Below are positions 17,901 to 59,200 of a stretch of DNA of 64,000 nt, one piece after another (position 1 is the first letter of the stretch; the number at the start of each line of letters is the position of its first letter). Source of the DNA: Lagopus muta (Eukaryota; Chordata; Aves; Galliformes; Phasianidae). The DNA lies in the NCBI RefSeq assembly GCF_023343835.1, contig NC_064472.1, forward strand, positions 10,097,469 to 10,161,468, given 5' to 3'. The notes under the pieces are model-generated. The model saw only the letters and a program-made list of their open reading frames with translations, was not told the DNA's origin and did not search any database. Position numbers and translations under genes: made by a program.

Positions 17901-20900
17901 CCAGATGGCCTGCCAGAACCTGGTGGATCCTGCCTGCACGCAGTCTCAGGTGAGTATGAAGTGGGCTGCTGTGGTGGGCATTTTCTTGTCTAAAAGGGAG
18001 TGTTGGAGAGGTGGGGAGATGCTGTGGGTCCTGCCTCACTCTGCTCTTCTCTACAGGTGCTGTCAGCAGCCACCATTGTGGCAAAGCACACCTCAGCCCT
18101 GTGCAACACCTGCCGCCTGGCCTCCTCCCGCACCGCTAACCCTGTCGCCAAGCGGCAGTTCGTCCAGTCAGCTAAGGAGGTGGCCAACAGCACAGCCAAC
18201 CTGGTGAAGACCATCAAGGTGCGGTTCCTGTTGGGGCAGTGTGGGCAGGGTATAGATAAGAGAGCACTTGGGTTTTAGGGTATGCTCAGGGCTAGATAAC
18301 TGCTTGCTCTCTCCTGCACACCAGGCCCTGGATGGTGCCTTCAATGAGGAGAACCGGGAGCGGTGCCGCGCAGCCACAGCTCCTCTCATAGAGGCTGTGG
18401 ACAACTTGACAGCCTTTGCCTCCAACCCGGAGTTTGCCACCGTTCCTGCCCAGATCAGCCCTGAGGTGGGGTGTCATTGGGGCGGGGAGGGGTGGTGGCC
18501 TGGCTGTGGTGGGAGCTGCTGCCCACATGTACCAGTCCATCTGTTTCACAAGGCCACTGCCTTCCCGCACAGGGACGCAGAGCCATGGAGCCTATTGTCA
18601 TATCTGCGAAGACGATGCTGGAGAGCTCTGCTGGACTCATTCAGACTGCCCGCTCCCTGGCTGTCAACCCCAAGGACCCGCCACAGTGGTCAGTGCTGGC
18701 CGGCCACTCTCGGACTGTCTCAGACTCCATCAAGAAGCTGATCACCAACATGAGGTGAGAGTGGACTGGAACATCTCAGCCAATCTTGTGTGTGTGGCCA
18801 GGGCCCCTTTGCACTGACCAGTATTGGGTGCACTTCCGAGCATGCTGGGAATATTTTGGCACATCTTGCTTTTGTTCTAGTTGGTTGTTGCCATGGGGAA
18901 GCAAGGAAGGTGTTGTTCCTCTTGCCCCTGTTGCGGCACTAATAAGTGTTGAGGGGCATGTGGTGCAGCTGCAGTGCCTGGCTCCAACACCGAGTTGCTT
19001 GGTGAAAGGGGTCCTGCCCCTCTCCAGCACCAGGGGAAGTTTGTGGTAAAGCGATGGTAAGCCCTGCACGGTGCTGATATGGTTGTCATACAGGGACAAA
19101 GCTCCTGGACAGCGGGAGTGCGACGAGGCCATTGAGGTCCTGAACAGATGCATGCGGGAGGTGGACCAGGCCTCCCTTGCAGCCATCAGCCAGCAGCTGG
19201 CCCCCCGAGAAGGTATCTCCCAGGAGGTAAGTGGGAACATGCTCCCGGGGCCAGGATCTTACCTGGAATCCCTCTGCCTTCACAAAGGGCTTCTGCAGCC
19301 CTTCTTGTGTCTTTAGCAGGAGTCCTAAATCCACCTAGCCAAGTGCTTGTCAGAACACCCTAGCTTAAAGCTGTGTGTCCCTGCTGCCTGTCTGGTTCAG
19401 TGGGACGGAGGAGTGGGTCTGCTCAGGCCACCACTGCACCCAGATCTGATTAGCAGTGCAGCCAGCACCTTGGTGTCCTGCTTAGCTCAGCAAGTTAACT
19501 CCTTCTCACCAGAGCTTAGTGAGACCAGCTCTGCTGTAGCTTCATGCAAGATACTCTCTTTACAACAGGCTTTGCATAACCAGATGATCACGGCTGTTCA
19601 GGAGATCAACAACCTGATAGAGCCTGTGGCCAGTGCAGCACGGGCTGAAGCCTCACAGCTGGGACATAAGGTAACTGAAGGGCAGGGATGGGGAGCTGGT
19701 GATCAGCCACCAAATGTGTGTCAAGTAGTTTGCACCATGAGGAGAGGCTCAGGCTAGCGGGTACTAGGACCTGCCAGCACTGACTCTGCTTTTCCCTAGG
19801 TGTCCCAGATGGCTCAGTACTTCGAGCCCCTCATTTTGGCAGCTATCGGTGCTGCCTCCAAAACACCCAATCACCAGCAGCAGATGAACCTCCTGGACCA
19901 GACCAAAACTCTGGCTGAGTCTGCCCTGCAGATGCTGTATACAGCCAAGGAGGCTGGTGGGAACCCCAAGGTGAGCAGGAGGTGGACATGTTGACACCGT
20001 GAGCTTTGGATGTGTGTCGTGTGTCATATGTGCACGCCCGACACTAAAACTCGGGACAAGCATGTGGTGTCTGCATTGGAGTGGAGTAACTTCATTCTCT
20101 CACTCTGTCATGTCCTTGCAGCAAGCTGCCCACACACAGGAGGCTTTGGAGGAAGCCGTGCAGATGATGAAGGAGGCAGTGGAGGACCTGACCACCACGC
20201 TCAACGAGGCAGCCAGCGCTGCAGGCGTTGTTGGGGGCATGGTGGACTCCATCACCCAAGCCATCAACCAGGTGAAGGGAACACAGAGAGGGCTGTGGGA
20301 GAGGAGGAGTCAGAGTCAAACTCTGTGTGTGACACTTAGTCATTTCTTGTCTTCCTTGGGATGCTGCCACTGAGTCTTGCTTGAGGAGTGGTAAACAGGG
20401 TACTGCGCTTAGGCAGCCAAGGAGGAAGGGAGAGATGCTGGAAGTTGTTCAGATCTTCCCCTGAGGGAGCTCTGGGGGATGGTCTAAGGGAGGAGCATCT
20501 GGAGCCCTTGTGGGAAGCACAAATCTCCTGCCCTGCTGTAGTCAAAGAGGGCCTCTGGGCTGGGGCTGGAGCCAAACTCTCCTGATATATTTTCTTGCAG
20601 CTGGATGAGGGACCAATGGGCGAGCCAGAGGGGACATTTGTGGACTACCAGACCACAATGGTGAAGACGGCCAAGGCTATTGCAGTGACTGTGCAGGAGA
20701 TGGTGCGTACAGGGCCCAGTCTCTGCTCTCCTACGCCCTCTTGCTTGAGGCAGAAAGCAGACAGTGTGCTGTGGTCTCACCCAGGCAAGGCAACTGCCAC
20801 TGCTGCTTGCCTGTCCTACTACAGGGCCCATCTGAGTTCTGCCCTTCTTTCATTGGCAGGTCACCAAATCCACCACTAACCCAGATGAGTTGGGCATACT

Positions 20901-23900
20901 GGCCAACCAGCTTACTAATGACTATGGGCAGCTGGCACAACAGGCCAAGCCAGCTGCGCTCACTGCTGAAAATGAGGAGGTAAGATGTTGGGCCTGGAGG
21001 AGCTGCATTGGATGACTGGCATTTCCCTTTGGGTGTATTGGGTGTAAGGCTAATGCCCTTCAGGCTCTCTCATGCACGTGTTTGCCTGCAGATTGGCTCC
21101 CACATTAAGCGCCGGGTACAGGAGCTCGGCCATGGCTGTGCTGCCCTGGTGACCAAGGCTGGAGCCCTGCAGTGTAGCCCCAGCGATGCCTACACCAAGA
21201 AGGAGCTGATAGAGAGTGCACGCAAGGTCTCCGAGAAGGTGAGCAGCCCTGAGGGTCTCAGAGCATGTAATAGGAGGGGGGGATTCAGATGGTGGGAGGA
21301 GTGCTGGGTTGAACCCCATGTCCTATGCCACCAATCTGGTTTCTCCGGTGGTCATCCTGGACTCTGTCTGCTCTTGGCCATGCTTGCCCTGGCACAACTG
21401 GAGTGGAGGAGCCACCCCAGTTCCCTCCTGACACCGTACCAACTTGTGCTGTGATTGGAGCAGTGAAACAGCTGGGTGCTCACTGCTGAAATGCTGAGCT
21501 ACCAAGGAGTATTGATCACACTCTCATGGCAGCTCAGGGCTCAGTAAACCTGCCCTTATTGAGATGTGTGTAGCATTTGCTGCATTTCTAACGAGCTTGC
21601 AACTCACTTTGGGTGATTGATCTCTTCTGCACCTTCTACTGGCATGGTGGAAAACCTTGTCCGTTTAAAAGCACATTGGTTAATAACAGATGCAAACATG
21701 GGTTAAAAAAAGTAGAGCTGCAGTCCTCCGAAGCAAGATTACAAAAGCAAAACAAACACTGGTTTGTACTGTCTGGCACAAATCAGCATGCTCAGGGCCC
21801 CCTGCAGATTCTTCCTTTCCAAGCTTACTTTCCACCAGGAAAACTTCTGTCTTGAGAGTGCTTGGCAGAGTGAAGGATTTGGATTTAGCACTTACAGAAG
21901 GAATGAGCTATAACGTGTAATAAACTGCACGCCTCACTTGTTTGGAGATTAGCACAGTCCAATGGTACATGCAATCCTAAAAGTGAGAGATACGAGATAA
22001 AAATTACTGAATGCTAAGAAGGGATATAATTCCTGATTCCCCTCCTTGATTTAAAGAGGTGCGTGGTGGGGGCTGCATGTGTCTGCCTCTCCAATCAACC
22101 TACTTGTACCCCACAGGTCTCCCACGTGCTGGCAGCCCTTCAGGCTGGGAACCGTGGGACTCAAGCCTGTATCACTGCAGCCAGTGCTGTCTCTGGCATC
22201 ATTGCTGACCTCGACACCACCATCATGTTTGCCACAGCAGGGACTCTCAATCGGGAGAACTCTGAAACCTTTGCTGACCACAGGTATCAGGGGATAGGAC
22301 ACTTTGCTCAGCTGGAGGTGAAGGGTCAGGCTCTATCCTACCATCTCACATCCTTGTAAGCCGTGGGCTAGCCCCAGAGAAATCTGCAAATTCATGCTGG
22401 CTCTGTTTTCACACCCAGTGTGTACAGACAGAAAGCAGGAAGCAAAGAGCATGTGCACATGCAGAGGGACAGAAACCTGCATGTCATTCTTTAGCACCTT
22501 GTGCAAGCACACCTCTGTGGCACTGCCTTCTCTCTGACATTCTTCTTCTCCCCAGGGAAGGCATTTTGAAGACAGCCAAGGCATTGGTAGAAGACACCAA
22601 GGTGCTGGTGCAGAACGCCACTGCCAGCCAGGAGAAGTTAGCCCAGGCTGCCCAGTCCTCTGTGTCCACCATCACCCGCCTGGCCGAGGTGGTGAAGCTA
22701 GGTGCTGCCAGCCTGGGATCTGAAGACCCAGAGACTCAGGTAGGATGGAGCACCTGCAGTGAATGGAGAGTGCTCATGCCTTGCAGGAATGGAATGGAGC
22801 TGAGGGTGTATGGTCTGGGCTGGACTCCATGTGCCCTGAAGAGGGTTGACTGGGCTTTGACCCTGGTCGGGCACTCTAGCTGAGCTAAATTCCATGTATA
22901 TGGTGTATCCTACAGCGCCCGTGTTTTTTATCACTGGGATGCTCCACCCCAGCTTGAGTGTGAGCAGATCACACTCCTGACCCTGGCCTTGCTTTCCCCA
23001 GGTGGTTCTGATCAATGCTGTGAAGGATGTGGCCAAAGCACTTGGGGACCTGATCGGTTCCACCAAAGCAGCTGCTGGCAAAGCTGGGGATGATCCTGCT
23101 GTCTATCAGCTGAAGAACTCTGCCAAGGTCTGCAATGGAGAAGAAAAGTTGGGGCAGGAGGGCTGGAGAAAGAGCTGGGGGACTTCTGTGCATGTCTAGG
23201 GGCACAGGGAGAATTGTGAGACAACTGGGAGAATGGAGCAGAGAGGCATGTGAAGGGTGGGGCACAGCACACATGAATTGGTGAGAGATCAAAATGAAAT
23301 GGTGTGAGTGGAGTTTGGGGAAGGGACAGTTTTGCACCAAACCAGAGGGAGAGATGGTGCTGGCAGCATCCTAGAGGTTTTGCAGGGCTTTACCTGGCTC
23401 TGTTCTCCCTTCCACAGGTGATGGTCACCAATGTCACTTCCTTGCTGAAGACAGTGAAGGCTGTTGAGGATGAGGCCACAAAGGGGACACGAGCACTGGA
23501 GGCCACGATAGAGCATATCCGCCAAGAACTGGCGGTGAGCACCGCTGCGGTGTCACAGCTGACGCCCTGCCCACCCGCTGCCCCATGCCTCATTCCTGCC
23601 TTTCTCCTCGCAGGTCTTCTCCTCCCCAGTGCCTCCTGCCCAGGTCTCGACCCCAGAGGACTTCATCCGAATGACAAAAGGCATCACGATGGCCACGGCC
23701 AAAGCTGTGGCCGCTGGTAACTCGTGTCGGCAGGAGGATGTCATCGCTACCGCCAACCTGAGCCGCCGTGCCATTGCCGACATGCTGCGCGCCTGCAAGG
23801 TGCTGCATGGGTGGGCGGCGGACGTGGGGCTGGCACAGGGCTGGGCGGACCCTGGCACAAGCCCCAGTGTCATATCTGGATGAAAATGCTGTCTCTGGGT

Positions 23901-30789: not shown

Positions 30790-44746
<13,957 letters not shown>

Positions 44747-46984: not shown

Positions 46985-47545
46985 GAAACTCACTGCAAGA
47001 CCCAAAGCAGCGCGGCCAGCGGGGCGAGGGAGGGGATCCTGCCCCTCTGCTCTGCGCTGTGACACCGCACCTGGAGCGCTGCGTCCACAGCTGGAGTGCT
47101 CAGCACAGCAGAGACGGGGGCCTGCTGGAGAGCGTCCAGAGGAGGGCCGCACGAATGGTCAGGATGGAGCAGCTCCCTGTGAGGACGGGCTGAGAGCTGG
47201 GGCTGTGCAGCCTGGGGAAGAGGAGGCTGAGCGAGACCTGAGGGCGGCCTGCCTGTGTCTAAGAGAGGACAGACTCTGTAGTGATAGGATAGGAGAAATG
47301 GCTTCAAACTGAAAGAAGGGAGATTTATATTGGATATAAGGAAGATTTTCATATTCAGGGTGGTGAGGCACTGGCACAGGTAGTCAGAGAGGTGGTGGAT
47401 GCCCCATCTCTGGAGCCACCCAAGGTCAGAGTGGGGGCTCTGAGCACTTGATGGCTGTTGCGGGTGTCCCTGGTCACTGCACGGGAGTTGGACCGGATGA
47501 CCTTTAAAGATCCCTTCCAACTCACACGATTCTGTGACTGTCCCT
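46985..47545 (+). mobile_element. CR1 LINE fragment
   Basis: Sense CR1 of about 560 bases: CTGGAGAGCGTCCAGAGGAG, GCCTGGGGAAGAGGAGGCTG, TTTATATTGGATATAAGGAA and a 3' end with GATGACCTTTAAAGATCCCT and ACGATTCTGTGACTGT. It is the longest CR1 in the window. Confidence 0.9.
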
Positions 47546-47775: not shown

Positions 47776-47929
47776 AACCACTCGGCTGCTCTTCCCACTC
47801 TCCGCCCAGCCCGTGCAGTTGTGCGGTTTTGCTCTGCCCCAGCCGCAGCACTGCACTGCACTCGCCCACGCTGGCAGCCACGCCAAAGCTCAACCCCACA
47901 TCGCCATGACGGCATCCCCCCTTCCCGGG

Positions 47930-48240
47930 AGGCCCCGCCTCCATCAGGCCCCGCCCACAGCGCAGACCCCTCCCACGCCGAAGCTCCGCCCCGCCCCCGC
48001 AGTCAGACCGCACCCAGTCACGCCCACCCGCAAACCACGCCCCCCTCGGGTGGTCACGCCCATTTTCCCCCCTCCCCGCTCGCCCGCCTCTTCCGGCCCG
48101 GGCGGCGGTGCGCCGCGGCGTGTGACGTCAGGCGGCCCCGGAAGGGCGCGGGCCGGGAGCAGCCGCCGCCGCCGCCGGGCCCCGTCGGGCCCCGTCCCGT
48201 CCCGCCGCAGCCCCACCCCCGTACCACGCGCCCCGCCGCC
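47930..48240 (+). promoter_or_regulatory. CpG-rich, TATA-less APH1 promoter region
   Basis: Very GC-rich sequence with repeated CCCCGCC-type motifs (possible Sp1 sites) directly upstream of the APH1 ATG. A TGTGACGTCA-like element (48120-48129) contains a cAMP-response core. No TATA box is seen, which fits a housekeeping gene. Confidence 0.55.
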
Positions 48241-51200
48241 ATGACGCTCGCCGTTTTTTTCGGGTGTACCTTCATCGCCTTCGGGCCCGCGTTCAGCCTC
48301 TTTCTCTTCACCATCGCCCGCGACCCCCTCCGCATCATCATCCTCATCGCGGGGTCAGTGCGGGGCTGGGGAATGTCGTGGCACGGTACGGTGCTGTGGC
48401 ACTGGTACCGGTGCGGGAGCATCGTGGCACCGGGACGGGAGTGGTACCGGGGTGGGGGACATAGGGCACTGGTGTGGGGGTGGTACCAGTACGGTGACAT
48501 CGGGGCATCTCTATAGGAGCTGTACCGGGGGGGACATGAGGCGCTGGTGTGGTACCGGCTCTGGTACTGGGACTCCAGTATGGGACTGGTACCATTGCGG
48601 GGAGCTCAGGCACCAGTATGGCACTGGTACCAGTGCAGAGATGTCACGGCACCAGTACTGTAGCGTTACCAGTGTGGGAGTGGTGGAGCACCAATTTGGT
48701 GCCAGGGCACCAATCTGGTGCCTGGACACCACTATGGCACTGACAGCAGTGCATGCAGGGGGCTGGCACAGTACTAGTGCTGGTTCAGGTGCCTGAGCAC
48801 CATTCTGGGTGCTGGTGGGCACCTTGTGAGCATGAAAGCACCACCAGTACCACTACTCATACTGGTGCCAGTGTCTGCTCAACCACTGCACTGGTGCCAC
48901 TATAGCTGTGGCACGGCAGGGACGGGGTCTGTAGGAGCATGGGAGCCAGCGGCACTGCAGGACTGGTGCTAGCCCTCCTGCAGCAGGGACTGAGCCCTAC
49001 CATGGCTCTGTGCTGGTGCCCACACAGCTCAGCTGCTGTTTCCCACCTCCCTAGGGCATTTTTCTGGCTAGTCTCACTGCTGCTCTCCTCCCTCATCTGG
49101 TTCATTGCTGTGAAGGCTAGCGACCCACGTGATGAGCCGCTGCAGAAAGGGCTCCTGATCTTCGGGGTGATGTTCTCCGTGTTGCTGCAGGAGGCGTTCC
49201 GCTTCCTCTACTACAAGCTCCTCAGGTAAGGGCAGCTCTGGCCTGGCTCCGGGCTGGGGGCACGTAATGTCGGTGAGCCTGGTGCCAGGAGAAGCCATTC
49301 TGACCCTGTGTGCCACATCATCCTGCTGCTCGGGGTCCCAGTCAGGGGGTTTTATGAGGCAAAAGGTCTTACGGCCAAAATCGCCGCACAGAGATGGGTT
49401 AAGGTGGAGGATGTCTGCGTAGTGAAGAGCAGCCCCAGGTCTGCAGGGCTGGAGGCTGACTGTGTGGTAGTGTCTTCCTGATCTCAGTGTGAGTTGGCTG
49501 TGATTTTAAGCTCCTGTAGCATCCTCACTGCCTGCCCTTCTTGTGACTGGAGTGGGTGGTGCTCCTGCAGCTCATACAAATGCCTGTGGGATGCCAGAGA
49601 CAAGAAGGTTCCCACTTTGCTGCATGGAGGATGCAGAAGGGTGAGGGACCGGCCCTTGTCGCAAGCCTCATCCCTTTCCCAGGAATAGCTCTGCATCAGC
49701 AGAAGGAGCCTGGAGGAGATTCTAAGGCTCCGCAGCACTGCAGTCTGCCCAATCTGGAGCAGTGTTGTGAGTGCAGGATTGCCTTCCCCCAGCCCAGGCT
49801 GCTGTGGGTGGCACACCCCTGCCTGGACAGGGCAAAGTCTGGGCCCAGCCCCGCGGTGTCTGCAGCAGCAGCAAGGAGGAGGAGGAGGAAGAGGAGGAGG
49901 GCTCATGCCGCTCCTTGTGGCAGCACTGCGGCAGGCAGGCAGAGGGTAGCAGAGATCTGTGCTTTGCCCTGCAGAGCCACGGCAGTGCCAGCACCACTGC
50001 CTTCCTGGCTGCACAGTGACATTCAGGACACTTAGCTTTCTGTGTTTCTTTGCCCAAAATTGATTTTTTTCTAGCTTTCAGTGTTTTTCTCTGCACTTCC
50101 TTGCATTTTTTCACCACCTCATAGAAAATACAACTCCTGAGATCTCAGCTCTTTGATGCCTGAACTGTGTTCACAACCAGGGGTGCTGCTGCCTGCAGCA
50201 TCCCACCAGCCGGTGTCTGAGCATTGGTGTGTGCTTGTCTTGCTCTCTGGAAAAAAATTCAAGGAGGTCCCATGGTGCTTGTTGCAGTGACGGCCAGCTT
50301 GGCAGCCACATGCTGCCCTCGGTCAGCACTCCAGGAGCTGTCAGCAGAGTCCTAAATGGTTCTCAGTAACGTGCAGAGTGCCTGTTGATTCATTAATCAA
50401 CCTCAGGGTCATTTAGGACAAGGCCAGGTGCCTGCCAGCAGCAGAACTGTACCCTTTTTTCACACTCATGAGAGGCGTGGGCTGGTGCAGGACAGTCCCC
50501 AGTCCCTTGCCCCATCCATCCAGGGTGCCATGTGGTGCCCCATCACACTGTCCCCTGCAGGAAGGCCATCGAGGGGCTGGTGGCCCTCAGCGAGGACGGC
50601 TGCTCCCCCATCTCCATCCAGCAAATGGCATATGGTGAGTGCTGCATGGGGAAGACGAGGTTGGGTCTCCTGGGGTCTTGGAGGTGCTTGGGTGGGGGGG
50701 GGATTGTGTCCTTGGGGTGTCACAGCCTCTCTGTGTCCTGGCAGTGGCTGGTGTGGGCTTTGGACTCATGAGCGGTGCTTTCTCCATGATCAACCTCCTG
50801 GCGGATGCTCTGGGACCTGGCACCGTGGGCATCCATGGGGACTCACAGCTCTATTTCTTGACCTCAGGTGAGGACAGGATTGTGCCCTGAGCCTTCATCA
50901 CAGGGGTGGCAGACACATAGCTGTATCATAGCCACTTGCAGCCCCAGTCTGTGGTGTTGTAGTCCCCTGTGACCTTGTCCAGCCCTGACCTTGCAGCATT
51001 ACTGAATCTCCATTACCTCCCCACTGTTGTCCCGGCAGCCTTCATGACCATGGTGCTGATCTTCCTGCACACCTTCTGGGGCATCCTCTTTTTCCATGGC
51101 TGTGAGAACCGACACTGGTGGGAGGTCGTGGCCGTCGTTGTCATGCACTTGGCTGTTTCAGGGTCGGTAAGTAGCCGGGAGCAGAGCTCAGTGCTGCCAC

Positions 51201-51896
51201 TAGGGGTGGCTGTGGGGTATGCTGGTGCCTGTGCCTGTGGAGGAGCAGCTACTCCTGCTACTGTGCTATGCTAAATTCATACTACATATTGGGCTACAGC
51301 TTGATACATCCTCACTAGATGTGCACCAGCAAAGCACGTAGAGATCATAACTCCCTACTAGGAGTTCCCCATGGGCTGTGCCCATCACTAACCAAACCCT
51401 GGAGCTAGTTTCCTACCCCTGGAACCATGAGTGATGCTGCTCTGTCCCCATCCTGTTCCAGCCACTCCCCAGAGTGCTGGGGCGAACTAAGAGGGGGACA
51501 CTGTGGCTGTGTGTGACAATTAGGCCATGAGAGATCCTGCTCACCCTTTCCCTTTCTCCTCTCTGCAGACATTTTGCAACCCGCTGTATGTAGGCAGCCT
51601 GGTGCCCTCCTATGTGCTGATGGCCATTGCTGCTGTCTGGGCATATATGCTGTCGGGGGGCTCTGTCCAGAACCTGCGCCGCTTCCTGCTCTGTAAGTCA
51701 CCCAAATGGAGTTTTCTTTGGTTACTGTGTCTTGAGGTGGGGCAGGGTGTCTTGGAGACTGAAGCAAGGTGATAGCTAAAAGGAAGAGACTCCAGGGTTT
51801 GGGTTGTTGCCTCTCTGAGGAAGTTAATTGGTAAAAACTGACCCCTTGCTTCCTGCAGGTGCACAGAGTGGAGCTAGCCCCCAGCCAGCATCCTGA
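48241..51896 (+). CDS. APH1: APH1-family gamma-secretase subunit, 256 aa, seven exons
   Basis: APH1 is the seven-pass scaffold of gamma-secretase, the presenilin complex that cleaves Notch and APP within the membrane. Exons: 48241-48353, 49055-49225, 50561-50634, 50745-50867, 51039-51166, 51569-51692 and 51859-51896. All junctions keep frame; total is 771 nt, 256 residues plus stop. The start (CCGCCGCC-ATG) gives MTLAVFFGCTFIAFGPA. The GxxxG glycines Gly122, Gly126 and Gly130 and the conserved His171 and His197 are all present. The C-terminus is short (LLCAQSGASPQPAS). Residues match APH1A in places (EDG-SPISI-QMAYV) and APH1B in others (PLRII-LIAG, SAFMT), so which paralogue it is remains open. 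It lies between TPM2 and CA9 and converges with CA9. Confidence 0.93.
48360..48870. repeat. Degenerate minisatellite in APH1 intron 1
   Basis: About 500 bases consist of diverged copies of a short unit built from GGCAC, ACTGGTACC and CAGTATGG elements (for example GGCACTGGTACC and variants at 48399, 48461, 48600 and 48627). Unit length drifts around 25-40 bases. It fills most of intron 1 (48354-49054). No coding potential is seen. Confidence 0.75.
49226..50560 (+). other. APH1 intron 2
   Basis: A 1.3-kb intron between the exons ending at 49225 and starting at 50561. Apart from a GGA-rich run (about 49876-49905) I see no repeat, exon or RNA gene. Confidence 0.5.
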
Positions 51897-52680: not shown

Positions 52681-52686
52681 AATAAA
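52681..52686 (+). terminator. APH1 polyadenylation signal AATAAA
   Basis: AATAAA 785 nt after the APH1 stop; the 3'UTR would be 51897 to about 52705. The CA9 3' end on the other strand begins within a few hundred bases, so the genes are tail to tail. Confidence 0.8.
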
Positions 52687-53224: not shown

Positions 53225-56200
53225 TTAGGCGGTGTTCTCGGCTGTGGCTGCTGTGTAGATGACCTTGGATTTAGTGGGTGAGTCCAGCCTGGAGCAGGAA
53301 GGAAGAGGATAGGTTAGAGCAAGAGGGGGCCCTGCTAACAGCTGTCCTGCAGTGGGTGCTGCTATCCCTGGGGAGGACTGCTGCCCATTGCTGGTGTTCC
53401 CATCACTTACCGTGCATTCTGGCTGCGGTTCTTGTAGACGTAGAGCAGGAAAGCCAGCATTGTGATGGCAAAGAGCACTCCAAAAAGCACAGCCAGCACA
53501 TCTCCTGAGCCCAAAAATGATACAAGGTTGGTTGGGGGGGGGAATGGTGCCAGGCTGGTGGCAGCCAACAGAAAGCCAGCAGCCAGCATGCTTACCTGCA
53601 TGAAATGAGCTGGTGTGTCCTGCTGAGAAACAAGAACTAGTGTGAGAGCATGCTGCAGGGACACCAGGGTGGATCTAGAGTATCCCCCCTGGCTTTTTGC
53701 CCCTCAGCGCAGCACAAGGCTGCCAGAAACCCCATCCCCACCAGGCACCCCAATCCCTTTTGCATCCCCGGCATCTCCCCTACCTGCTGTTGCTGAGGTG
53801 CCATCACCTGAAAGAGACACATCACAGTCAGGGGGTGCCCAGAGGCGAGGGGAACACAATTATGGGTTCTTCCAGAAGTGACAAGAGGTTGGCCCTAGAG
53901 CCAGGCTGCTCACGTTGCTCCCTGCATAGGATGGCCAGTGCATGTCCATGCCCTAAATGCTGGGCCGGGGCTGTGCCAGGCAAATATTTACCCAGCACAA
54001 TGGTGCTGCTTGCACACAGCTGCATTATCGCCTCTGTGCCTCTCTGTGTGGTGCCGGCTGGCACTATCGGTGGCAGTGTCCCATGGTTCAGGGAAGCCAC
54101 CACCACGACAACAGCAATGCCACTGCTGCTTGGGGACAAGGGCTTTGTATGAGCTCAGGGCTTTGATAGAAATAGCAAATAAGAGAAAAAAAGCAGTGTT
54201 TGCACCTCCACCCCCACCTCTACAATGCCAGGGAGCAGCTTCTGCAGAAAGTGTCAAGAGGCTTGGAAATAAATGGTGAACACGATAAAGCAGCCAACAG
54301 GTTTACCAAAGATAGAGCAATGCCAGCCTAACCCGATATCCTTCTTTGATAAGTGAGATTCTAGACAAAGAAAATGCGGCAGATTTTATCTGCTAGACTT
54401 CAGTGAAGCGTTCCCATGGTGCTGCCCGGGCACTGCAGTGATGGGAGCCCATGGCCAGGGGAAGCCCCAGCACTGCCCCAGGCCTTGGTGCTGTTACTCA
54501 GTGTGACACAGGGCATCGGAAACGCCGCCCAAAGGGAGAGGGAACAGGATGTTGGACAGCAAAAAAATAAAACCCTGAGTGAGTTCAGAGAACTGAGAAT
54601 GGCATGGATTTAGTGATGCAGAGATAGTCACACCTGAGGGCAAACAGGAATTTCGAGTCATAGCTGGAAACCACCAGTGCTAGGAAGTGCTCTGAGGACA
54701 AACTAAGGACAGGAGCAGGGCCAACCCATGCACAAACCTTTCACCAAGAGAAGCAGAGCTCTGAAGCATCACTCCTCCCCCCCCAGGATGCTCACGCACT
54801 CCTTACCTGCAGGCACCTGCCTCTCCCGGGAGGAGCTGGGCTCAAAGCTTGCCAGCACCCATCTCCTGTGCAGGCTCTGGTCCTGCCGAAAGTTGTTCAT
54901 GAGGAGGCGGTGGTCATCTGTGTGCAGGCTGCTCACCAGTATGGACATCTGCGAGGAAAGCAGTGTGAGTGGGGTGGGATGCGGGATGCCCTGGGGAGCC
55001 AAGATCCAGCATGCACATGGCCAACAGACCTGTTCCTTGGAGAGCATCACCGTCTGGTTGAAGACAGTCCACTTGATGGATTCATGGCAGGGTGGGGTGG
55101 TCAGGGACCCATTGTAGTGGAAGTAGAGGTGCAGGTTGTCAGGCAGCAGGCCAGCGATGTTGAACCCGGGCACAAGGACTTCATCATCTGTGAGGAGAAA
55201 TGGGGCAGCGGTGAACTGCTGCTGTGCAAGCTTCTCCTGTGCACAGAGCCAACAGCTGCTACAGCCTTCCTCTGCAGTGCCAGCAGGGCATTACCTTCTC
55301 CTTGGATGCTATGCAGGTGCTCGAGTATCTGCTGGTAATATGGGTTCTCCCTTGGCCCAACCTGCAACAGAGCAGTGATGGAAGGAATGGCTGCTGGCAA
55401 AGGGCCTCATGTCCTTCTGTCCCCTTCTCCATCCTCTAGATCATGTTGTTCTTCCTTCCCCTCCTTGCTCAAGGACTGCTCACCTCCAGGAAGACCCCCA
55501 GCACTGCCATCCCATCCGGTTGAGTTAGGGCTGCCTTGAAGTTCTCGTACTTGGTGTTGTAATGGACCACGTGGAGCTGAAAGGAAACACAGCCCCAGTG
55601 TGGGATGGGCACCCCTGGATGGTGCTCACTTCCTTGGACAGAATATATTCTGGGGGAGAGATGCAGCTCCTGCTTGGGGGACATTGCTGGTGAAGTGGGA
55701 TAAAGGTGCCATAGCAGTGAGCACCAAGAGCTGCCCTGAACATGGGCAGACAACCCGCCCTGGAGGACAGCAGCTGTACCAGAAGGGATGAGATCAGCCC
55801 GAGCTGGCTGTGTGCAGCTCACGGTCCTGTGCCACCAGCCCAGCAGCAGGACAGAACACTCCTCACCTCCCCAGCAAAGCGCTTGTGGTCAACGGTGTGC
55901 TCGGAGCCAGGATTCGAAGGCGAGCCCCAGTGCAGGTGCAGCTGCACGGCACGGTACTGCTGTGCGTAGCCACCCGTGATGGCCAAGGACTCAGGCAGCT
56001 TCAGGACCACTGCAGAAGGAGGGAGAGTGCAGTTGGTAAGGCAGAATGGCTGAAGGGAAGGAGTCACCTTGGGCTGGGGGAGGTTGGTGACAACAAACAA
56101 AGTGGCTTTGGATCTTAAACGAGGTTGAGGGTAGGGCAACGGGTAGAGCCGTGCTATGAAGCAAGGTTCAGCCTGCAGAACACCCAGTGAATAGCTGTAT

Positions 56201-59200
56201 TCGCTATGTGGGAATAACACAAAGAGGCTGTGGATAGAGGATAAGGGGATTGGCAGTGATGTACACCTAAAGGAGCGTAGAGCTGCATCACTGCTGCATC
56301 AAACAGAGCAGCCTGCAGGCCTGGCCAGCACTGGGGCTGGCGTCACATGAAATCTGCAGAGTTAGAGCAGAGTTAGTTTGGACACAGGGCACATGTATTT
56401 GGTTTTGCCTTTACCTTTAGGTGTGGTTTAGGGCAAAGTTGAGCTCCAGATACCTGGCGAGCAGAACAGTGCTGTAGATAACCTAAGGGCTGAGCTACGG
56501 GGGGGACAAGCACCAACATCATGAGTATCCCTGGGAGAGGCTGTGGATGGTTGGACTGGATGATCTTTTCCAACTTTGGTGATTCTGTCCCATCCTTATA
56601 GGTGAAGTGTTTCAATCACATCACTAGGGCACAGGTTTGTGATGAGTCATCTGTCCTCTCCTGCGCCACCAGGCACAGAGATACAGAACTCAAATACACT
56701 CCTTCCTCCCTGTGCATTTATACCCTCCCATGTTTCTATTGTATATCTAACTTGGTGCTTTCCTAGCATTCATCTGAGTCATTTTCAACATATACATTGT
56801 GTAAGGAGTAACTGTAGAGCTGTCCTAGCTGACTTGCAACTTTTCACTTTGTTCTATTTTTCCTGAGTGATCACAGAGGTCAGCACATGAAAAACTACCT
56901 CAGCCCTGGCCCCTCTGGTTGAAAATGCTACAAGTGTTTCTGTGAACACCAAACAGCACCAGATGCCAGGGTGCCTAAAATAGCAACCACTGACCTCAGA
57001 CCGTTGAGCTATGCAGGCAGCTAGGGCAAGAGGCTATAAAATAGAGTGCTGGGCATGCCGTGCGCAGCAAGTCTGACTTGTTGGGTTTGCAGCACGCAGG
57101 GATCAGCTCCCACGGGCAAGGGCATGGAGCTATCCTGCTGCAGCCTCAGAGAGTTCTTCAGCTGCCATCACTACCAGCAGGTCCCACTCTGAGCAGCATG
57201 CACAGGGCTGGAAGTGCTTTTGGAAGGAGCTGGTGGCAGCCAGGATCCACTGCTGCAGGGAGGAGCTGATGAGGTTTCTGGAAAGCTGGGACAGAATCTG
57301 TTCACATTATTTTACTATCAGTCTCACCATGCTAGATAGAGAGAAAAAAGCCCTTCTAAAACTGCAGAAGCCTTTTAAAAGTGTCTTAAGATCCTCAGAT
57401 AGCATCTCAAAGTATAGACTTCAAGAAGAGTGTCCTACAAGAGAGGCGGTACCATGGAGGCTAATTCACACAAGGCCATGATTTCTCCTTTGAAAAAAGT
57501 GCCATGTAGGAAAGGAACCAATGGCTGCAAACCTGCATTAGGAACAAATTTCTAAAGGAAACACGAATTACAATAAATTCCTGAAGCCAACACCCAACAC
57601 AGTGAATAGCGAGCTCCCCCACCCACCTGTGTGCCCATTGTTCTTCATTTCTAGCATCTGGCTGGCAGGCAGGCTGTAGCCGGAGAGCTGGATGGGTCGC
57701 AGCTGGGGGCTGAAGATGGTCGTCTCCGTGTTGATGTTGATGGGAGATTGCATGTTGCCTGCACACTCTGGGAAGTGCTTGGCCCACTGCCCTGGATCTG
57801 GCATGGAGAAAGGGCAGAGGTGAGAGCAGGCAGGGACAGGACCTGGGGGTTTGGTGGGTGCAGGAGAAGAGATGGGCCGTGCACCACGCACAAAGGGTAG
57901 GTTTCTACCAAGTCAGCTCATGAGCAGCTCTATGGGCATGGTAGTGGTGGGTTGGCGGTTGGACTTGATGATCTTTGAGATCTTTTCCAACCTTTAATGA
58001 TTCCATGATTCTATGCTGCCATATGACCGCTTGTGGCTGCATCATGAAAGGGTTCTGAGCATGGTGAGCTGCCAGGAAAGTCTATTTTAGGGGTGTTTGG
58101 GAAGAGCGTGAGAATATCATTTACAAGTGGACTTGGCAGGCAGGGGAGCTCTGCAGCTCATCACACTCACTGCTGGCAGGCACGGCCCCCTGTGAGCACG
58201 GTGCCACCATCTGCAGCTTCTGCCTTGGGCCACCGCAAGCCAGCGTCGTCCCCCTGCACACCCTGCTCTAGGAGACGGTGCAAGGACACAAGGTGATCCT
58301 CGGGCAAAGTCCCAGTACAGCCTGTCAGTGAGAATGGCATGGGACGGGCCTGTGCCTGCCTGGGGAGGCAAAACCCCAGAGACCCCCACACTGAGGCACA
58401 GGGGATCCCACTGCTGCCTCACAAATGGCCCAGGCTCGGTCACTGCTGAACCAGCATGGTGCAGGGAGGGAAGGGTGAGACACTGAGTGTGCCTGGTAAT
58501 CATTAACCAGGACTGGCTGGAGCCCAGGGTCTGATGGTGGTGGCGAAAGTAGGAGCAACTGCAGGGTATTTACCTTCATAACTCCAATGGCTGTCACTGG
58601 GACCTTGAGAATAAAAAAAAAAAGAAAAAGAGAGCATGAATGGAAGTGAAAGATTGGCTGCAAACACACCTCTGCCATGCAGCACTCCTGGTCCTACGGC
58701 AGCCATGCACCCTCTGCCTCAGTGCTCTCCCAGCATTTGCCTGCTTGTTCTCCTCCTCCTCCTTCACCAGAACCAGAAATGCTCCCAAAGGGCACTGCCT
58801 CCTCCATGCAGAGAGAAAACTCCTGAGTTGATGCTTGGTTATTATCATTATAGTGGAAAATAATTCACAGATATCGCTCCCATCACTCAATAGCACCAGT
58901 TATGCTCTTCCAGCTGCTCCCACTGTGCCCCCATCAGATCCTGTAAGCACCATCCAGCTCCATACCTCTATCCCTCATTAGGGTGAGTGCCTACCAGGAT
59001 GGCTGGGAGGCAGGAGAGCCACCATGTTGGTCCCCATTGCCCCCCTGACAACAGCCATTGACTTGCTATTAATAGGAGCAGATTCCATCTCATGGTGAGA
59101 AAGGAAAAGGCACACTTTCCCAGGCCCAGGCAATCGGCACAAGCCCCAAGCCCAGCAGGATCCTGCCCTCCTCCCAGCCCCAGGCAGCGGGTGGCCACAG

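Follow-up and report, generated by a model that had tools for sequence, protein, structure and literature searches.

The APH1 gene and its neighbours

The window, i.e. the whole 64,000-base stretch of DNA that was analysed, corresponds to C59:10097469-10161468 of a bird genome of 1.03 Gb in 165 contigs and carries, in this order, talin-1 (+), a TPM2-type tropomyosin (+), an APH1 gene (+) and CA9 (-). The talin-1 exons located (20634..21247, +) are a part of the gene recognised by a VBS domain match; all four PDB sequences found for this segment (4/4) are Talin-1, with the proviso that Talin-2 chains may not cover the stretch in PDB. The tropomyosin, given here by its matched exons only (34006..40475, +), resembles beta fragments more than alpha fragments of matching length, scoring 170.2 bits with the beta fragment 3u59 against 95.5 with the equally long alpha fragment 3u1c, and 205.3 bits with 8zbm against 192.4 with 8zb7. 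Its top PDB matches were full-length alpha-1 chains (266.8 bits), no full-length beta chain being among the matches listed, and the TPM2 label is in part our assumption. The CA9-type carbonic anhydrase (53409..57798, -) lies tail to tail with APH1, its approximate limits being a transmembrane-type exon and the first exon matched, and is nearest to CA9 (236.7 bits) as against CA14 (205.2 and 204.6 for two chains) and CA12 (194.8).

The only Glyco_hydr_116N locus of the genome lies on the + strand of the same contig, some 38-40 kb upstream of the window; we take it to be GBA2 and GBA2 to be a 9p13 gene, and in gene order the block presumably matches human 9p13. Human 9p13 is not known to have an APH1 between TPM2 and CA9; humans have APH1A and APH1B. 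Further along the contig, three DM-domain genes lie within about 90 kb (26.45-26.54 Mb; 26452909-26543034), which we assume to be DMRT1, 3 and 2 (DMRT1-3-2), arranged as on the avian Z, and on account of this trio C59 most probably represents the Z chromosome.

The first-pass annotation had placed an intact 256-residue APH1 gene between TPM2 (+) and CA9 (-), past TLN1 (+), and exons, Pfam and neighbours all agree with this. The coding span (48241..51896, +) comprises seven exons whose chaining by AG/GT sites gives an exact open reading frame of 256 residues, with GT-AG at all six introns (6/6). Exon 1 (48241..48353, 113 nt) ends in phase 2 and is followed by exon 2 (49055..49225, 171 nt), exon 3 (50561..50634, 74 nt), exon 4 (50745..50867, 123 nt), which encodes the GxxxGxxxG glycines 122, 126 and 130, exon 5 (51039..51166, 128 nt), which encodes His171 and His197, exon 6 (51569..51692, 124 nt) and exon 7 (51859..51896, 38 nt), with a short tail AQSGASPQPAS and then the stop, all on the + strand. 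The Pfam Aph-1 family (PF06105) matches the protein at 311.3 bits (cut-off 25.6) over positions 1-231 of the 231 of the profile; the gene is real and chance is no issue. A CpG-rich promoter region at the start of the gene (47800..48600; GC 0.66-0.76 and CpG o/e 0.85-1.08 in 400-base segments from about 47800, 48000 and 48200 onwards) and an AATAAA signal at its likely 3' end (52681..52686, +) would fit an active gene. Two repeats were observed by the way: the sequence at 47000-47540, just 5' of the CpG-rich start, resembles what we take to be a bird CR1 element, and intron 1 (48360-48960) reads by eye as a degenerate repeat in which GGTACC / CACTGGTACC-like units are abundant.

APH1 loci of the genome and their relationships

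The genome has two intact APH1 loci, the window gene and an APH1A on contig C32. In a genome search with the Pfam Aph-1 profile all eight matches above the cut-off (8/8; 14/14 candidates scored) fell at these loci, four on C59 and four on C32, and with human APH1B as query 11 matches were obtained (11/11 candidates scored), five on C59, five on C32 and one on C11. The last of these (C11:18561892-18562110) has an E value of 0.108 and five stops and is probably due to chance. The C32 gene and a carbonic anhydrase are arranged tail to tail; the latter is CA14, scoring 267.4 and 262.3 bits with two chains of CA14, 228.8 with CA12 and 195.7 with CA9. It is this arrangement, together with 79.3% identity to human APH1A, that identifies the C32 gene as APH1A. 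Its exons 1-5 (113, 171, 74, 123 and 128 nt) are identical in length and phase to those of the window gene. One intron of the CA14 beside it (C32:1524330-1525000) reads by eye, in translation, as a short-period tandem repeat.

A further block, on C13, contains another talin, a tropomyosin, a RAB8B-like gene, found with a RAB8B query sequence of other than database origin, and a carbonic anhydrase nearest to CA12 (296.9 bits, against 194.1 for CA14 and 158.1 for CA9). By gene order we take this block to be of the human 15q22 type, in which APH1B presumably sits between RAB8B and CA12. The window APH1 has the place and orientation expected of an ohnolog in a paralogous block with TLN, TPM and CA members. 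The search that had been suggested for an APH1A beside CA14 and an APH1B beside CA12 thus came out divided, the former being present on C32 and the RAB8B-CA12 neighbourhood on C13 being without an intact APH1.

Over 246 aligned columns the window protein is 63.4% identical to human APH1A, 61.4% to bird APH1A and 56.5% to human APH1B, the two APH1As are 79.3% identical to each other, and human APH1B is 56.1% and 58.9% identical to them. A tree was built from the four sequences, human APH1B being the sole APH1B included. Quartet sites were divided 16 : 5 : 2, most of them uniting the window gene and human APH1B against bird and human APH1A, and in the AU test of the unrooted quartet this topology obtained 0.998 and the other two, at 0.002 and 0.004, were rejected; the window gene thus predates the divergence of human and bird APH1A. 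Summed branch lengths were 0.89 from the window gene to human APH1B, 0.87 from human APH1A to human APH1B, 0.73 from the window gene to human APH1A and 0.285 from bird to human APH1A, so that the first path is about equal to the second and threefold the last. On these figures the window gene, APH1A and APH1B appear about equally distant from one another, as would be expected of three old ohnologs. When a fly outgroup was added, its sequence being of other than database origin, the window gene branched first with 62% bootstrap, and no rooting was rejected, all three being accepted by the AU test (0.75, 0.35 and 0.19). Since the quartet split would also fit a true APH1B ortholog, the tree alone cannot separate a third ohnolog from a fast-evolving APH1B; it is ambiguous, and therefore genomic place and relics decide.

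The RAB8B-CA12 interval on C13

From the end of the last RAB8B exon (C13:16269702) to the start of the last matched CA12 exon (16287482) there are 17,779 bases without an N, within a surrounding stretch that is itself gap-free (0 N in 56.5 kb); the GC content of the interval is 42%, against 57% for the window. An intact APH1 was sought between RAB8B and CA12 (17.8 kb) and is absent. A hidden Markov model (HMM) made from four APH1 proteins gave two matches in the interval, of 10.5 bits at 16277583-16277738 and of 8.5 bits at 16279728-16279856; the strand (+) and the order of the two are as expected. Among 300 dinucleotide shuffles none reached 10.5 bits (0/300) and none had two matches of at least 8.5 bits together (0/300), while 8.5 bits was attained as best match in 14/300. 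The model peaked at 7.9 bits in block shuffles of the interval (n=30), at 5.1 in 25 overlapping genomic stretches as long as the interval, taken from C32, C13 and the window, and at 5.4 and 4.7 in two separate pieces of C13 with GC matched to that of the interval (0.43 vs 0.42). With the window gene left out of the model the two matches scored 10.7 and 9.6 bits; with human APH1B alone as profile they scored 7.4 and 6.7, and a minus-strand match scored 6.6. By tblastn, the best match of human APH1B in the interval (23.9 bits) was equalled in 2/60 block shuffles and that of the window gene in 20/60.

The HMM alignments of both candidate relics cross expected introns, and this running through counts against them at first; the positions of AG acceptors suggest why it occurs. 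The core of the putative exon 3 relic (C13:16277621-16277694) starts directly after a TTACAG acceptor and is exactly 74 nt long, the length of exon 3 in the window gene and in APH1A, with no GT after it; that of the putative exon 6 relic (C13:16279785-16279886) follows a pyrimidine-rich tract ending in GGCAG, begins at the exon 5/6 boundary and hits a TAG at 16279884. This splice-site agreement was noticed post hoc and carries no separate probability. The exon 3 core scores 34 with human APH1B (0/2000 residue shuffles), 26 with bird APH1A (15/2000) and 24 with the window gene (8/2000), and the exon 6 core 35 (4/2000), 34 (19/2000) and 29 (36/2000), respectively; both are thus nearest to human APH1B, the second with less contrast. 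We consider it probable that the two matches are decayed exons 3 and 6 of APH1B, and the APH1 copy retained by mammals has apparently gone from this genome. The search on C13 covered exons 1 to 6, of which exons 1, 2, 4 and 5 gave nothing clearly above chance, and a nucleotide-level search for relic exons there with 10 exon queries gave lowest null counts of 2/40. One exon 2 candidate, 'FWLLSLLPSAL' at C13:16277188, was rejected, as it was equalled in shuffles (2/60 with the window gene as query and 10/60 with human APH1B) and has no AG in place.

Origin and likely role of the window gene

Our preferred reading, to which we give a probability of roughly 0.87, is that the TLN1-TPM2-CA9 paralogon has its own APH1 ohnolog in the window gene, and that the genome keeps APH1A and this third copy, with APH1B no longer intact at its place. 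According to this reading, early vertebrate genome duplications would have produced an APH1 copy on the TLN1-TPM2-CA9 paralogon, which would then have stayed intact on the likely Z while the 15q22-type APH1B decayed, probably to traces; the early vertebrate date of the duplication is the one we infer. The pattern resembles hidden paralogy through differential loss of ohnologs, the second APH1 of this genome being probably not the counterpart of the human second APH1, and by extension from the one bird genome and the human sequences compared it may be general across birds. The first-pass annotation likewise had the gene as the APH1 of a third paralogon, distinct both from the APH1A by CA14 and from the 15q22-type APH1B place, and in this it was supported. 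Its suggestion of an extra γ-secretase composition found no support, because the genome, with two intact APH1 loci and not three, has APH1A and a third ohnolog where humans have APH1A and APH1B.

An ordinary APH1B might instead have moved in this lineage from between RAB8B and CA12 to the TPM2-CA9 interval, a possibility that the first-pass annotation had raised in the form of a sole locus translocated here. In part this holds, as the searches found no APH1 other than APH1A and the window gene; moreover, the window gene is paired with human APH1B in the unrooted quartet, and the RAB8B-CA12 interval on C13 is without an intact APH1B. However, the gene sits precisely at the ohnologous position, facing CA9 tail to tail in the way that APH1A faces CA14, and this shared arrangement and the possible APH1B relics persisting on C13 both oppose a move. 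Moreover, at 56.5% identity it is no nearer to human APH1B than the two APH1As are (56.1% and 58.9%), the one-residue gap of human APH1B is missing from it in the alignment, and it keeps its introns, hence it is no retrocopy, an origin that we regard as ruled out. A move is therefore improbable. By position, too, the gene does not match an APH1B ortholog, lying on C59 by CA9, with and the RAB8B-CA12 interval on C13 having no intact APH1. Still less likely is it that the window gene is the third ohnolog but that an APH1B too divergent or unassembled to be found makes three APH1 genes in all. Bird assemblies can drop genes with difficult or GC-rich sequence, according to part of the literature, and the genome search scores only the best candidates; the surroundings of RAB8B and CA12, however, are gap-free and 42% GC with no intact APH1, and, of the two possible relics there, the exon 3 one has no GT behind it and the exon 6 one meets a TAG. 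A lineage-specific duplicate of APH1A is the least credible of the three, for although the better of the two PDB relatives found is human-type APH1A (345.8 bits, against 296.9 for APH1B) and exons 1-5 are arranged as in APH1A, the AU test rejects pairing with bird APH1A (0.002) or with human APH1A alone (0.004), and the gene is only 61-63% identical to APH1As that are 79.3% identical to each other. Identity with APH1A itself was rejected on the same AU values and on the neighbour, which is CA9 and not CA14, the ortholog being the C32 gene.

As the probable third ohnolog, the window gene shares with APH1A (human 1q21; C32 by CA14) the fold family, the lengths and phases of exons 1-5, the glycine triad, the two histidines and a carbonic anhydrase neighbour tail to tail; it differs from it at 61-63% identity, in being most likely Z-linked and in a short C-terminal tail without the EDDSRVM..YSAL.. 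end present in the C32 APH1A. With APH1B (human 15q22) it groups in the unrooted quartet and has the same place relative to TPM and CA, but it belongs to another paralogon (TPM2-CA9), is 56.5% identical and has no one-residue deletion. The name of mouse Aph1c hints at a third APH1, but Aph1c is presumably a rodent copy of Aph1b and is not known to be related to a third paralogon. A parallel in history is Bmp16, a 2R duplicate reported to be lost in mammals, archelosaurs and amphibians and recognised by phylogeny and synteny (PMC6395752). Like the window APH1 it is missing from well-studied genomes; unlike it, it is of a different family, and in the APH1 case the lineage also appears to be without the copy retained by mammals.

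The titles and abstract beginnings among the literature matches listed described neither a third APH1 nor a history of APH1 in birds. Excerpts of avian studies list an APH1B (PMC5103168) and an APH1A (PMC6438477) in quail and an Aph1a accession in chick (PMC3880542), and no chromosomal place of APH1 is given in the excerpts of PMC5103168, PMC11594159, PMC4075077, PMC6438477, PMC3880542 and PMC11591532. The window gene may already be named in public annotation databases. We would tentatively suggest, at somewhat under even odds, that birds as a group lost the APH1B used by mammals and run their second γ-secretase on a different, Z-linked ohnolog; avian 'APH1B' genes would then be hidden paralogs rather than orthologs, and the make-up of γ-secretase, and hence Notch, neuregulin and APP processing, could vary in dose with sex (ZZ males, ZW females). 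If another ohnolog did take the place of APH1B in birds, studies of 'APH1B' function in chick and in mammals would pit different genes against each other, and birds would offer a natural way of telling ancestral from specific APH1 properties and of testing whether Z linkage of one copy makes γ-secretase dose-sensitive to sex.

APH1A and APH1B confer different properties on mammalian γ-secretases, and the residues G122, G126, G130, H171 and H197, important in APH1, are all kept in the window protein (5/5). Most likely it is an ordinary or alternative APH1 scaffold of γ-secretase; it would join presenilin, nicastrin and PEN-2 in the complex and govern its stability and processivity, the role that APH1A and APH1B have in mammals. 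APH1 isoforms are reported to alter the Aβ42/40 ratio without a shift in ε-cleavage of APP (PMC4683055), and Aph1b is reported to be tied to neuregulin-1 signalling (PMC4073283). The window protein departs at 18 sites from a residue common to both APH1As and human APH1B, e.g. D180H, P154Q, M224A and G225A. Presenilin is encoded at no fewer than two loci of the genome, on C9 and C2, with 12 of the 15 matches above the cut-off (93 of 1590 candidates scored).
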